Assembly (NCBI GenBank): GCA_001600415.1
Contig: BCJX01000007.1
Location: forward strand, 310,999 to 374,998
Length of the DNA stretch: 64,000 bases
Reading direction: 5' to 3'
Origin: Pascua guehoae
Lineage: Eukaryota > Basidiomycota > Tremellomycetes > Trichosporonales > Trichosporonaceae
The translations under genes and the position numbers were made by a program. Positions 2,883-30,549 of the stretch are shown piece after piece (within the stretch, counting starts at the first letter, position 1; every line of letters begins with the position of its first letter). The notes below the pieces were generated by a model. The model was not told the origin of the DNA. It ran no database searches and saw only the letters and a program-made list of their open reading frames with translations.

Positions 2883-3272
2883 ACAGGAGTTGTAGCTCGT
2901 AAATAAACTTCTCGTAGATGTTGTCAGAATAGATTGTCATGTTACTTGTGTCTCGTCACCGCGAGCAACCAAAGTCGATTGCAACTTGTTCGCTTGAGCG
3001 GTCAACAGCTGTTCCAGGGCTGCAGAGCGGGTAGGATGTCGCAGAGCTCCCTTCGTACGAAGCTTTATAGCTCAAGACGCATGGAACTTAGGCAACGCAG
3101 GGAACCACTGGGCGAATTTGCTCCAAAAACATGCCTGGAAAAGAGTCGTCTTGCTACGCCTGCCACACCTCCCGCACGACCCACAACCCCCCCACCGCCC
3201 CCCCAACCCAACCCCTCTCCAGACCATCCTGACTCTCCAGAGCGTCCCCATCATCACGTCGCAGTCCAAAAA

Positions 3273-3399
3273 GGTCACGACGGGGCTCGAACCCGCGATC
3301 TCTTGATTACTAGGCCTCGGAGACCGGGACGGGGACCCGGACTCGATGAGGAGGCGTGATTGGTCGTAGTCAAGCGCCGTACCATTTGGCCACGCGACC
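3273..3399 (-). tRNA. tRNA-Arg (anticodon ACG) with 56-nt intron
   Basis: Read on the minus strand, acceptor GGTCGCG (3399-3393) pairs with CGTGACC (3279-3273) with one G.U. The D-stem is GCC/GGC, the anticodon stem is CTTGA/TCAAG, and the loop is C-T-A-C-G-A-A with anticodon ACG. The T-stem is GCGGG/CCCGT with loop TTCGAGC. A 56-nt intron (3308-3363) sits after base 37, the canonical tRNA intron position. Spliced length is 71 nt. Five T follow directly (3272-3268), serving as a Pol III terminator. The intron is GC-rich and longer than many nuclear tRNA introns. Confidence 0.93.
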
Positions 3400-25895: not shown

Positions 25896-26409
25896 CCACC
25901 CCGGTATAGCCATTGTCCCCCGTCGCTCCTCCTCGCGCTCGTCCAACACACGCGTCGCGGCCGCCTCGTTGCCCTGGACAAGACACGCCGTCCAGTGGGA
26001 TAACCCCGCCATAGTGATCTGGCCCACCAGTCGCGTCCTCAATAGCCCAAGTGAGATGATAGTCGATGTGGCTGGTCTTTTGGTGCGGACCGGGTAGTCG
26101 CGGCCAGCGACGCCATCCATGAGCTGTCGAGCGACCACCATTCCGCTGTCCTCGAGTTTCTTAACATTGTATGCCGCCGCCCACGACCTCGTCTACACCG
26201 TCCGCCACGACTACCCTGCCGTTCACGCGGAACACGTACACGACACCGCGGTTGTCGTTGGGGTCGTTGGACAGTGTATTGTTGGGGACGGCGAGCATGT
26301 CGATGGCTGGGTCATGTCCTCGTCCATTCCAAGCAGTCTGCCAATGGCGGATACTGTACCAGTGTACACGCAGCCGCGGCGACAACACTCTGCCCTGCTC
26401 AAAAGCATC

Positions 26410-26448
26410 GGCGAGATGGCCTAGCATTCTGAGGCGCTGGGTTTCAGC
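26410..26448 (+). pseudogene. 5' half of an interrupted class II tRNA gene
   Basis: Acceptor GGCGAGA (26410-26416), TG, D-stem GCC/GGC (26419-26421 and 26433-26435) and the start of an anticodon arm GCGCTGGG. The acceptor strand is complementary, with one G.U, to TCTCGTC at 30275-30281 on the far side of the LINE. The D-loop (TAGCATTCTGA) lacks the usual GG, so the copy has decayed or is unusual. The GGCGCTGG word is typical of Leu-type tRNAs. Confidence 0.55.
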
Positions 26449-29400
26449 GGCGGCTATGTAGGTGCTCTACTAGGACATCTAACTAGTGCGTCTAGGCCAC
26501 GACGGGCCTGTCGAGGACGCGACACATGAGGAGCTTGCAGGATATGCGGTTGAGGGCAAGGCCGAGCTTGTGGCGGTCCGCTAGGCAGCGCCATTCTCGG
26601 ACTGCGCCCTCGGCCTCGGCGTGCATGACGCCGCCGGCCGAGAGGACGAAGGGGATGAAGCGCACCATGGGGAGGTCCCCGGGCTGCTTTTTGCGCTTGG
26701 CGGCTGCTGCGCGCTCAAGGATGCACTCGGTGGCGGCTGCGACCCCTGTGGCATCGTCGCCGACTTCGCTCGCAAACCTCCACACGGCCTTGTCGGCATC
26801 GCTGGTGGTCAGGGAGGTCACGGAGACATCTACTTTGAACGGCGTAGGCGGCAGGGCCCCACCGGCAGCGGGCACAACCCGTAGGTCGTTGCGGAGCTCG
26901 GCAGTACCTTCCTGGCTGCCGATGCGTGGCTCTACATGCATCTCGCCCGCGATGCCATCTAGTAGGCGCTTGAGGGCATATTTGACGCTCTCAGTGCGCG
27001 GGTGCGCGCTGCGCACATCCCGTCGTGCATGCAGGTGTCGGCGTGGCCATAGCGGATCGCCCTGGTCGGGCAGGCCCCACATGCAGCAGCAGCTTCTGGG
27101 CCTGCGAGCGCGCGTGTATAGAGGGCAAGGGACACGCCCTCATTGGGGATGGCGAGCATGCACTCCGTTGGGATAGTGGAGAGCCATCGGCGGCCCAGGA
27201 GAGATGCGCTCTCGAGCAGCGTTGCTCAGCGCAGCGTGTCGAGTTGGTCCCATAGCCGCTTGCGGCGCTCGGCGAGCAGGGGTGCGTGGCGGGCCCGCTG
27301 CGGCAGTGGCCGCGCACCGCGCGCTTCTTCGTCCATGAGGGTCCATCTCGCCATCTCACGTGCCGCTTCATATGTGAGGGCAGCGCGCTCGACGTGCGAT
27401 AAGAGTCCGAGACCGCCGAGCCAGGGAGTGCTCGTATATCGGCGTCGACAGTCTCGTCCACTTTGAGGACATCGGCGAGGTGGTTAGGTGGGGGGTCGCG
27501 CACAACGGCCAGGGCATGTGCGAGGTCACTGTCGCGCTCTCCCCAGGCGTCCTCCAGCCCACTAGGGTCAAGGGTGCGCAGCAGGTGGGCTGTATTGTGC
27601 TGTAGGCAAGTCCGCAGGAGGAGGAGGGCCTCCTGTGTGCCTAGGCTCGCGCCAAGGCGATCAAGTGCGGGCCACTCGGCCTCAATCGCGCTCTCGAGGA
27701 AGGCGCGTCGGACTTCAGCTGGGCCGCCGACAACAGCGCCAAGGGCCTCGATACCATGTGCGTGGACCTCGTCGAGCGTCATGACCTTGCATTTGTGGGG
27801 ATTGAGGGTAAGGGGGTTGTGGCGCATCTCGAGGAAGGTGGCGACCTCATTGAGTGCGTCCNGGGGCCCAATGATGTGGATATCATCTAGGTANGCGACT
27901 AGGTCNAACTCTGGGCCNAGNGNATCCCTCAGGTCACCGAGGAGGGTCGCAATGGCAAGGGAGAAGAGCGCGGGGCCGAGGGGGTCACCCTGTCGCACTC
28001 CCTGTGTCGAGGAGAGAGTGACGACGCCGCCGACGCTGCCCCGCACCAGGAGGTCGGAGGGGTCATTGTACGCCCAGCGCACAAACTGGTACAGCTGCGG
28101 CACGTGCTCGCGGACACCCTGCGCGACAAGGCAGCAGTCTAGCGCATTGAACGCATTCTTGAAGTTGAGCTGCGTGAGGACGCGCTCGGCCTCGGCGGGT
28201 GGTGCGTCAAGGTGGCCCCGCAGCCACTCTAGGGCAGGCTCGACCCCGCCAGGCATGCCAACACCATGTTGCCATGGGTGCAGCGCATTTGGGCCGAGGG
28301 GGAGGGCACGGAGCGCCATCTTGGCAAGAAGCCTGTAGACTAGTGAGCCTACGGCGATGGGACGCACGCTGCCACCGGCCTTGGCTAGCGGTGTGAGCGT
28401 GGCCGCGCATAGGAGGTCGCGGCATGGAGCGGCGCCAGCTGAGGCTGCGCCAAAGACCGTGACAAGGGCTCTGCACACCTCGTCGGCCTCGGCGGCGACC
28501 TTGAGGAGGGGTACGGTCCACCCGTCCACCCCTGCAGCTGTGCCGGCGTCAAAGGTGGCGAGGGCAGTGAGGACCAGGTCGGCGTCAGGCAGGGATTGTG
28601 GCGGCCGCGCCGGTGCAGCCATGAATGGCTTCATCGGCCCTTGCGGGTGCAGGGCCTCGAGAGCATCGATCGCCGCCTGCCCGTGGGCAAGCGCAGTCGG
28701 CGTGAGGGCGCGCGCAGCAGCGCCTAGCCGTCCCGCGCGCACAAGGTGCTGCGCGCGCAAGAGGGGGGCCGCCATGTGCTGTGGGCTGCTGCTGCCAGCG
28801 GCCCGTGTAGGTGGTGGGGGGGTTGGGAGGTGAGGGTACGTGTCAAGGTGGGCACGTATGGCGGCAGTGTCGCCATTGGTGGCAAGGCCGAGGTTGGGGA
28901 GGAGTAGGAGCGCTCGGAGGTTGCGCTCTGACTTGTCGGCGAGATATGCCGAGGCCGTCCGCCTAGCGGCACGCTTGAAGGCTCGCCGGATGGCGGTAGA
29001 GCTCGGCAAGCGGTGGCGCAGAGGGTAGGCGAGCAGCGCGGCCCCAGAGATGCCATCTGAGGCGAGCACAGAGGAGGTGGGCTCAGCAGTCAGCGCCGAG
29101 GGCAGCGCTTGCGAGGTGGAGGGTGAGGCCAGCGGCTGTGGGGTGCCAGCGCACGATGGCGGCGAGGCCGTGGATGAGGGCACGTGCGACACCGAGAGCT
29201 GTGGAGCCGACAGTGTCGCGCGTAGGGGTGTCCGCGGCGTCGAGGGCCTGCGCAATGGCCCGGAGGACCTCGGCGCGGCCGGCGAGGCCGAGGCTGGGGG
29301 TGCTGGGGGCATGGGGAGGGTCCGCGCGGCGCTCGGGCCCACGGGGGACATGCGGGGGGCTTGCACGCTGCCATTGGGTAGGCTCGGTGTGCGCCTGAGA

Positions 29401-30247
29401 GTGCGTATGGCCGGGGGTGCGCTCCCGCTGCTCACGCATGCGGCGGCCGCCTCGGCGGCCGTGGCGACGGCTGCTGCGCCGTCTGGGCGGCGATTGCGGG
29501 CGGGGAGGGAGGGGGTGACGCGGAAGGCTGGGGGCGGCGGCAGTGGCTGGCCGCTGCAGAGCGAGAAGGTCAGCCAGGCCTCAGCGGGGAAGGCTGTCGG
29601 CGACGGCGTGCGGAGGGCGGTGGGGGAGGGGTGCAGTGGTGCGCTCGCCGCGCGAGGTGTGCCGCCCGATAGGTGGGCGGCAGGCAACAACGTCGGCCCA
29701 GGAGCAGTGCGGGGAGAGGGTGAGGGTGATAGTGTTGCCACCAGTGGCGACGCGGTCGCCGGTGGCCTCGGCGGAGGTGGTGGGGGGCGCATCGGCAGCC
29801 TCGGCGGGTGCAGGGGAGGGCGCACGGCTCTGCAGAGGTGTGCTGGGGTTGCGAGTGCGCTCTACTGCGTGTGCAGTGCTTGTCGGCGTCGTCGACTCGG
29901 AGAGGTCGCAGATGGCCCGAGCACTAAAGATGATGTCACCGTCGATGTCGACGGTCTCGACTGTGGAGGGGGGCCTGGACGCCGTTCTTTCGACCAGCGC
30001 TTGCGGGGGGTGGGGGGAGGGCGCTGCTCGCTGCGCGTCGGCGTCGGCGTCGTCGTCGGTAGTGTGCGGGGTGTCAAAGTTCTGGAGGGTCTGTGCGTTT
30101 TTAAGTGAGGTGGTGCAAATCTTCTTCAGCGCCGATCTTGTCGATGGAGCCATCTTCCGGCGTGGTTGTCGGCTCTGGCAGTAGCTCTCGGCATGGGCTT
30201 CTCGGCGGTGGCGTCGGCGTTGCGCTAGCTGCTCGGTGTTGGCCGCA
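26449..30247 (-). mobile_element. Decayed LINE (non-LTR retrotransposon) with RT and restriction-like endonuclease
   Basis: The element reads on the minus strand. A first frame starts at 30153 (to 29581, Pro/Ser/Thr-rich). A second frame, 29825-26991, carries a reverse transcriptase with TAAGVDGWTVPLL, RPIAVGSLVYRLLAK, LNFKNAFNALD, QGVRQGDPLGPALF and the catalytic YLDD (about 27893-27882). Downstream the coding sequence shifts frame at least three times (near 27430, 27228 and 27000). Pieces resume as WLGGLGLLSHVERAAL, a Cys/His cluster (about 27085-27025), and ESVKYALKRLLDG then RNDLRVV...VDVSVTS (26893-26812), ending at 26492. The last block resembles the core of the restriction-like endonuclease of R2/CRE-type LINEs. 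Six undetermined bases (27862-27923) fall in the RT palm. The frameshifts and Ns mean this copy is not functional as sequenced. Confidence 0.85.
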
Positions 30248-30282
30248 GTCTTCGGACGTGGGTTCGAATCCCACTCTCGTCA
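30248..30282 (+). pseudogene. 3' half of the interrupted class II tRNA gene
   Basis: Variable arm GTC-TTCG-GAC (30248-30257), T-stem GTGGG/CCCAC with loop TTCGAAT (30258-30274), acceptor TCTCGTC (30275-30281) and discriminator A. A T5 Pol III terminator lies at 30313-30317. The long variable arm marks a Leu/Ser-type tRNA. No 5' half is present within 150 bp upstream; the matching half lies 3.8 kb away at 26410, on the other side of the LINE. Confidence 0.7.
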
Positions 30283-30549
30283 ACAGGGGATTAGGTTCCT
30301 CATATGCCTAGCTTTTTGGAATCTAGACAGTCCGACGAGCCCTGGAGGGCTCTGACCGTGCAAGAGCGACAGATGAGCGAGTGTGAATGCCGTTTGTTTG
30401 AGTAACACGATCGTGATCACGATACCCTGGTCAAAGTGGGGGACATTGACGATTTCGACGGGGCAAACAAAACATATCAACTACAAGATGACACAGAATA
30501 TGCGTACGAGACGCGCAGATAATGATGGTGTGGGACAATTTCGTCAACC
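30283..30549. other. Intergenic, 3' flank of the carboxypeptidase gene
   Basis: No gene is visible. It contains the Pol III terminator of the broken tRNA and should contain the 3' UTR of the minus-strand gene ending at 30550. Confidence 0.5.

Follow-up and report, generated by a model that had tools for sequence, protein, structure and literature searches.

Elements of the CRE group (SLACS, CRE1/2, and CZAR) are known for spliced-leader targets, and NeSL-1_TV is an element of Trichomonas. Passages of a published survey describe relatives of the NeSL clade that are specific for tRNA genes: NeSL-1_TV itself for tRNA-Pro, LIN15_SM for tRNA-Arg, and LIN25_SM for tRNA-Glu (Kojima & Jurka, 2015, PMC4640811). 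tRNA-Leu genes are targeted by Dada DNA transposons, of which Dada-tL, as portions of PMC3706591 describe it, sits inside the gene with a defined target site duplication (TSD). With NeSL-1_TV, LIN15_SM, LIN25_SM, and Dada on record, insertion into tRNA genes is therefore an already known kind of targeting. The locus described here lies in a 64,000-nucleotide stretch of the basidiomycete Pascua guehoae (GenBank assembly GCA_001600415.1, contig BCJX01000007.1, positions 310,999–374,998), hereafter the window, which holds a long interspersed nuclear element (LINE) inside a tRNA-Leu gene. We regard it as very probable that this LINE is a site-specific non-LTR (long terminal repeat) retrotransposon that carries a C-terminal restriction-like endonuclease (RLE) and targets multicopy, intron-bearing genes of the tRNA-Leu(AAG) type. 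Three copies share one site, one orientation, and the same junctions, lie at the intron position, and carry a 26-nt tRNA-like tail.

Three copies at one site of tRNA-Leu genes

The locus joins, on the minus strand, an RVT_1 reverse transcriptase (RT) domain and an endonuclease frame, with halves of a tRNA-Leu gene on both sides; the proposal of the initial annotation that a LINE lies within a class II tRNA gene is thereby borne out. The left half is GGCGAGATGGCC (26410–26421), and the right half runs from CCGCAG (30243–30248) to TCTCGTC (30275–30281) and the discriminator A (30282); a 7-bp pairing, one G·U pair included, joins the two acceptor strands, as had been stated. Neither ARAGORN nor Rfam at its gathering threshold reports a tRNA at the element-bearing locus; at a loose Rfam threshold, the right tRNA half overlaps a match to the tmRNA model that stays below that model's cut-off. 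No TSD is seen at the element (26422–30242).

The genome (G000; 33.6 Mb in 28 contigs), searched with element DNA and protein, holds three copies, named here for their contigs: C7 (the copy in the window), C3, and C15. C3 is full length and 93% identical to C7; C15 is in two parts (93% and 87% identical) that lie 8 kb apart, with ~0.8 kb of element missing. Left and right junctions are identical in all three, and every copy is antisense to the tRNA and in a tRNA-Leu-type gene. The fixed-site insertion that had been proposed is thus what the genome displays, with all three copies at one position in a single type of tRNA gene and none at an unrelated site; random insertion would place all three within 54 × 90 bp with a chance of ~3e-12. 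The left-junction 30-mer, with up to three mismatches allowed, occurs three times in the 33.6 Mb, each time without a mismatch and only at these copies (its reversed control, zero times), so no further 5′-truncated copy retaining the 3′ end was found.

The empty target is abundant. A 37-mer from the tRNA 3′ half is found at 54 loci with at most one mismatch, and at 11 more with three. Three of the 54 are filled by the element, and the other 51 retain the 5′ half (counting L095, in which it differs by one base); the anticodon region of these intact genes is AAG in 47 (L095 included), CAG in three, and TAG in one. ARAGORN called a tRNA in 34 of 34 intact paralogs tested (33 Leu and one "SeC" with anticodon TCA) and likewise in 17 further intact units (L082–L098). 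These 51 paralogous empty sites identify the left-hand half as tRNA sequence, as first suspected. Introns of the intact genes are variable and follow position 37, and it is at this intron position that the element sits; the gap between the left and right target parts is 34–41 bp in 50 of the 51 and 61 bp in one. A short interspersed nuclear element was considered as the target, given the 51 copies and a conserved 37-nt trailer, and was rejected as the principal interpretation: the intact units are called as tRNAs, and their introns vary.

That trailer, found on tRNA-Leu(AAG) and tRNA-Leu(CAG) genes (window 30283–30319; L047–L076 and L082–L101), contains a hairpin, GRGGA...TCCTC, and a T-run. 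Each of the five hairpin pairs is formed in most of 57 unique trailers (55, 56, 56, 55, and 54, in order), which come from the 51 intact genes, the three filled loci, and three members of a related CAG family that has 11 loci. One pair is changed from G-C to C-G in four of the 57, and L096 and L098 form fewer than four of the five pairs; by eye, no ARAGORN-called tRNA gene of 30 other loci shares the trailer. The tRNA-Leu-type genes L067 and L087 both carry GCTGTTTTCAGG in the anticodon region, and ARAGORN calls L087 a tRNA-SeC (TCA); the single "SeC" among the 34 tested paralogs is presumably L067. Both are likely Leu-CAG genes, with a UGA-reading tRNA as the alternative. Elsewhere in the window, Rfam recognizes a tRNA gene at 3272–3399 (minus strand; 48.9 bits) that contains a long intron-like insert and that ARAGORN does not report.

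Flanks, selection, and the separateness of insertions

The alignment of C3 with C7 ends at 26408, two bases short of the tRNA, and outward of that point they have nothing in common. The upstream 400 bases of each find no match at E 1e-3 among 29 unique intact loci (of the 51) or the other copies. Among the first ten listed lines per copy, five intact loci match the flank upstream of C15: L054, L066, and the neighboring L047 over 80–188 bases, and L050 and L055 over 33–39 bases adjoining the tRNA. C7 and C15 are weakly alignable over ~45 upstream bases, a stretch present at other tRNA-Leu loci too, and the last bases of C7 before the tRNA align weakly to the intact gene beside C15. Downstream, C7 is nearer to the empty locus L074 (78%, 114 columns) than to C15 (73%, 146 columns), and C15 is 75% identical to the empty L049 over 410 columns. 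In our view C7 and C15 have similar flanks because their tRNA loci are paralogous, and the comparison as a whole points to at least two separate insertions, probably three.

The ratio of nonsynonymous to synonymous substitution rates (dN/dS) in the RT frame is 0.165 for C7–C15 and 0.174 for C3–C15, compared with 1.77–2.40 in the other frames, a pattern that suggests past selection on RT. The RLE frame gives 0.19–0.35, a range without an off-frame control, and the first open reading frame (ORF1) is more weakly constrained (0.29, 0.36, and 1.01 before its overlap with ORF2; 0.76–0.78 within it). In the assembly, every copy is disrupted: a single in-frame stop lies between RT and endonuclease in C3, C7 bears a stop in ORF1 and, compared with C3, small gaps that shift the frame, and C15 is interrupted and has stops. 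With this combination of stop, frameshifts, and nested insertion, all three now look inactive. The sequence that splits C15 is ~8 kb of other mobile DNA, with an RT at C15:967403 and, by eye, a chromodomain/integrase-like frame (L012:2042–3541; L011:1–1500).

It is improbable, in our judgment, that a single chance insertion into a variant tRNA-Leu gene was spread by segmental duplication or gene conversion, with an enzyme that has no target preference. Such a history would accommodate the identity of the tRNA halves and left tail in all copies, the common homology through which tRNA-Leu genes are able to recombine, the C7/C15 flank similarities, and a heterogeneity in synonymous divergence (dS) between C7 and C3 (see below). 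However, left homology between C3 and C7 extends only ~14 bp, the C3 upstream flank matches none of the 29 intact loci tested, the downstream similarity of C7 and C15 is no better than that of either to an empty locus, and dN/dS against C15 is low. Guidance by bound RNA polymerase III factors rather than by DNA sequence, as in Dictyostelium TRE5-A, seems more improbable still. tRNA genes are polymerase III genes, and parts of PMC3706591 describe TRE5-A and Tf1 as guided by host DNA-binding proteins; but by the same description such elements land near their targets and not at fixed positions inside them, whereas here both junctions are base-exact in three of three copies and all targets are of one tRNA type.

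The tRNA-like tail

In all three copies, TAGCATTCTGAGGCGCTGGGTTTCAG directly follows GGCGAGATGGCC, a succession seen in none of the intact genes. It belongs to 79 nt at the element's 3′ end that are identical in the three copies and that, with adjoining target bases, form the longest invariant block of the alignment (93 columns; the next has 55). The odd D-loop is therefore brought by the element. The initial annotation had read a D-loop lacking GG as damage to the target, which is ruled out: the variant D-loop is the element's own 3′ tail, confined to the three element copies, and the 51 intact genes have an ordinary one. Nor do the anticodon-stem remnants fail to pair, as had been claimed; their pairing suffices for ARAGORN to recognize a tRNA on joined flanks, in three of three copies with the tail included (anticodon TCA) and in none of three without it.

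In the register expected from the tRNA, the tail agrees at 17 of its first 22 positions and at 18 of 26 overall (16 of 22 and 17 of 26 against the CAG variant); among 7546 other 22-mers of the element the highest count is 13, and none of 200,000 shuffles does as well as the tail. It follows from this match and from the tRNA calls on joined flanks that the insert replaces the target from D-loop to intron by its own worn copy. The tail is a worn, captured piece of the target that restores exon 1 of the tRNA as far as the anticodon and, being present in copies with different flanks, arrived with the cDNA. That its likeness to tRNA is mere chance, and that insertion simply deletes ~35–40 bp, is hardly credible: the last 4 nt do align only after a shift, and the overall match is 18 of 26, but the agreement in the sole expected register far exceeds its controls, and the joined flanks are called as tRNA in every copy. 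The persistence of the tail in the longest invariant stretch suggests that it is part of the RNA signal read by the RT, or that it is able to pair with the opened tRNA-sense strand.

Enzymes, mechanism, and comparison with known systems

In its own sense, the element consists of a ~90-nt 5′ untranslated region (UTR), ORF1, an overlapping ORF2 with RT and C-terminal endonuclease, and a 3′ UTR that follows the stop codon at 26492–26494 (Table 1). Rfam reports no ribozyme at the 5′ end (29950–30340) and no match at the 3′ end, and an internal AGATGTCCTAG is similar, by eye, to the junction AGATGGCCTAG (10 of 11).

Table 1. Window coordinates of the element and of its tRNA-Leu target
Feature	Position	Strand	Remarks
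Target, 5′ end of tRNA-Leu gene (acceptor 5′ strand, positions 8–9, D-stem start)	26410..26421	+	In all 51 intact genes
LINE, 3821 bp, antisense to tRNA gene	26422..30242	-	Boundaries from three copies compared with intact genes
tRNA-like tail (last 26 nt of element)	26422..26447	+	D-loop, D-stem, anticodon stem and loop in tRNA register
3′ UTR, 70 nt	26422..26491	-	Part of the 79-nt block invariant in three copies
Frame with restriction-like endonuclease core	26492..27139	-	RND...VDVSVT
Reverse transcriptase domain RVT_1	27750..28382	-	Pfam PF00078, E 4.7e-15; G000:C7:338748-339380
ORF2, open frame holding RT	26991..29861	-	Final part in wrong frame after small gaps vs C3
ORF1, overlapping ORF2 frame	29083..30153	-	356 aa in C3, open in C15, one in-frame stop in C7
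Target, tRNA-Leu 3′ part (C38/anticodon-stem 3′ strand, variable arm, T-arm, acceptor 3′ strand, discriminator)	30243..30282	+	
Conserved tRNA-Leu 3′ trailer	30283..30319	+	Hairpin and T5 stop signal; host, not element

The RT is of the non-LTR type, and profile matches extend to R2 chains over RT and RLE (1.3e-44) and to L1 ORF2 (2.4e-15). A C-terminal CCHC knuckle precedes an endonuclease of the PD-(D/E)xK type; the RLE that had been suspected is confirmed on the C3 copy by alignment and motif, and its predicted fold agrees. The knuckle is out of frame in C7 and in frame in C3, where its spacing (CX2CX8HX3C) fits that of the CRE group, with RND in place of R/KPD, a substitution found in 23 of 37 homologs among the motif-filtered matches listed. 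For CRE-group RLEs, the relevant passages of PMC12857005 give C[X1-3]C[X7-8]H[X3-4]C ... R/KPD ... D/E, with RAD in MoTeR1.

In the RT tree, the element falls in a 60-row clade (99/99) that includes Diplonema proteins named SLACS by annotators, and three R2 chains lie outside it; this tree is weakly rooted at depth, has partial stretches as its R2 rows, and was built without the original CRE, SLACS, Cnl1, MoTeR, NeSL, and planarian LIN sequences. Of the R2/CRE/NeSL-type comparison drawn initially, an RLE-bearing LINE at a fixed site of a multicopy gene stands, and placement in the R2 clade finds no support: the RT groups apart from the R2 chains, and the target in three of three copies is a tRNA-Leu-type gene, not 28S rDNA. 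A scan of viral contigs yielded no relatives with DNA context, and a scan of homologous proteins for a few antisense-tRNA peptides gave two chance-like matches (P0026 and P0034). The RTs on contigs C9 (L080; C9:499800–505800) and C11 (L081; C11:1001000–1007000) were rejected as family members, as they belong to unrelated LINEs with, by eye, RNase H-like and APE-like stretches, respectively.

The insertion steps can be sketched by analogy with R2, as target-primed reverse transcription (TPRT). The endonuclease would nick the tRNA-sense strand somewhere in the gene's first 12 bases or at their edge, and the nicked 3′ end would prime reverse transcription of element RNA from the tRNA-like tail; the second strand would be cut just before C38, and the intervening target, from D-loop to intron, would be lost and replaced by the tail. 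In R2, according to portions of PMC10499050, the nicked strand primes RNA copying, and 3′ homology is dispensable but partly rescues weakened reactions. More tentatively, and with rather less than even confidence, one might regard the element as a target-rebuilding LINE: its RNA would end in a maintained mimic of the removed tRNA segment, insertion would restore exon 1 through the anticodon, with the element in place of the intron, and during TPRT the mimic would help in recognizing the target or in annealing strands. It is unlikely that the entire insert is spliced out as a giant tRNA intron, because RNA polymerase III should terminate at the T5 runs that the tRNA-sense strand has at 26688 and 30098.

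Several points weigh against the reading as a site-specific element with a target-derived tail. There are only three copies, none of them visibly intact. C7 and C15 are less surely separate insertions than C3, because of their similarity over ~45 upstream bases and 146 downstream columns. Between C7 and C3, RT dN/dS is 0.54 and less clear (off-frames 0.84 and 1.04), and dS is 0.09 in RT vs 0.22 in RLE, so exchange between copies, or errors, are possible. N bases around the YLDD motif (window 27840–27930; L010) occupy the same five RT columns in C7 and C3, one more in C7, and none in C15; they are probably unresolved repeat bases in the assembly, and base-level detail of the RT near YLDD is therefore unsure. 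The 3′ UTR folds no better than shuffles (z −1.18), the nick sites are not placeable within bases common to all these tRNA-Leu genes, and the tail is perhaps a mere relic, since R2 initiation needs no 3′ homology.

With the LINE described here, the short list of exact RLE-LINE targets grows by tRNA-Leu genes, entered at the intron position, and the RT concerned does not group with R2. Its captured tail makes the fit between the 3′ end of element RNA and target DNA in TPRT testable, and such site-specific enzymes also attract interest as insertion tools for multicopy genes. In the titles and abstract openings of open-licence literature, no fungal tRNA-targeting RLE LINE was found, which is not proof of absence; nor do these, with some passages of text, mention for an RLE LINE a tRNA-Leu target, a place at the intron position, or an element-borne target tail.

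Dada-tL likewise has its site inside tRNA-Leu genes; it differs as a DDE-transposase DNA transposon with a TSD and no RT. R2 (28S rDNA) is alike in RT and RLE architecture, in endonuclease fold, and presumably in TPRT, but the present element lies apart from R2 chains in the tree, has another target, and is antisense to its target gene. The C-terminal RLE with a CCHC knuckle is common to the CRE group and to fungal Cnl1, MoTeR, and FoTeR; the RT shares its clade with the SLACS-named Diplonema proteins, and named fungal relatives occur in Kwoniella and Aureobasidium. The nearest homologs include P0001, at 43% identity, and the Kwoniella proteins P0041, P0042, and P0051. Those elements are site-specific or telomere-associated in the passages of PMC12857005 concerned, whereas here the target is tRNA-Leu and RND stands for R/KPD. 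Judged by published passages, NeSL-1_TV, LIN15_SM, and LIN25_SM are similar in habit, as families allied to NeSL, an RLE clade, and each specific for one tRNA gene type; they differ in host (planaria for the LIN families) and in tRNA, the present element occupying tRNA-Leu(AAG) at its intron position.
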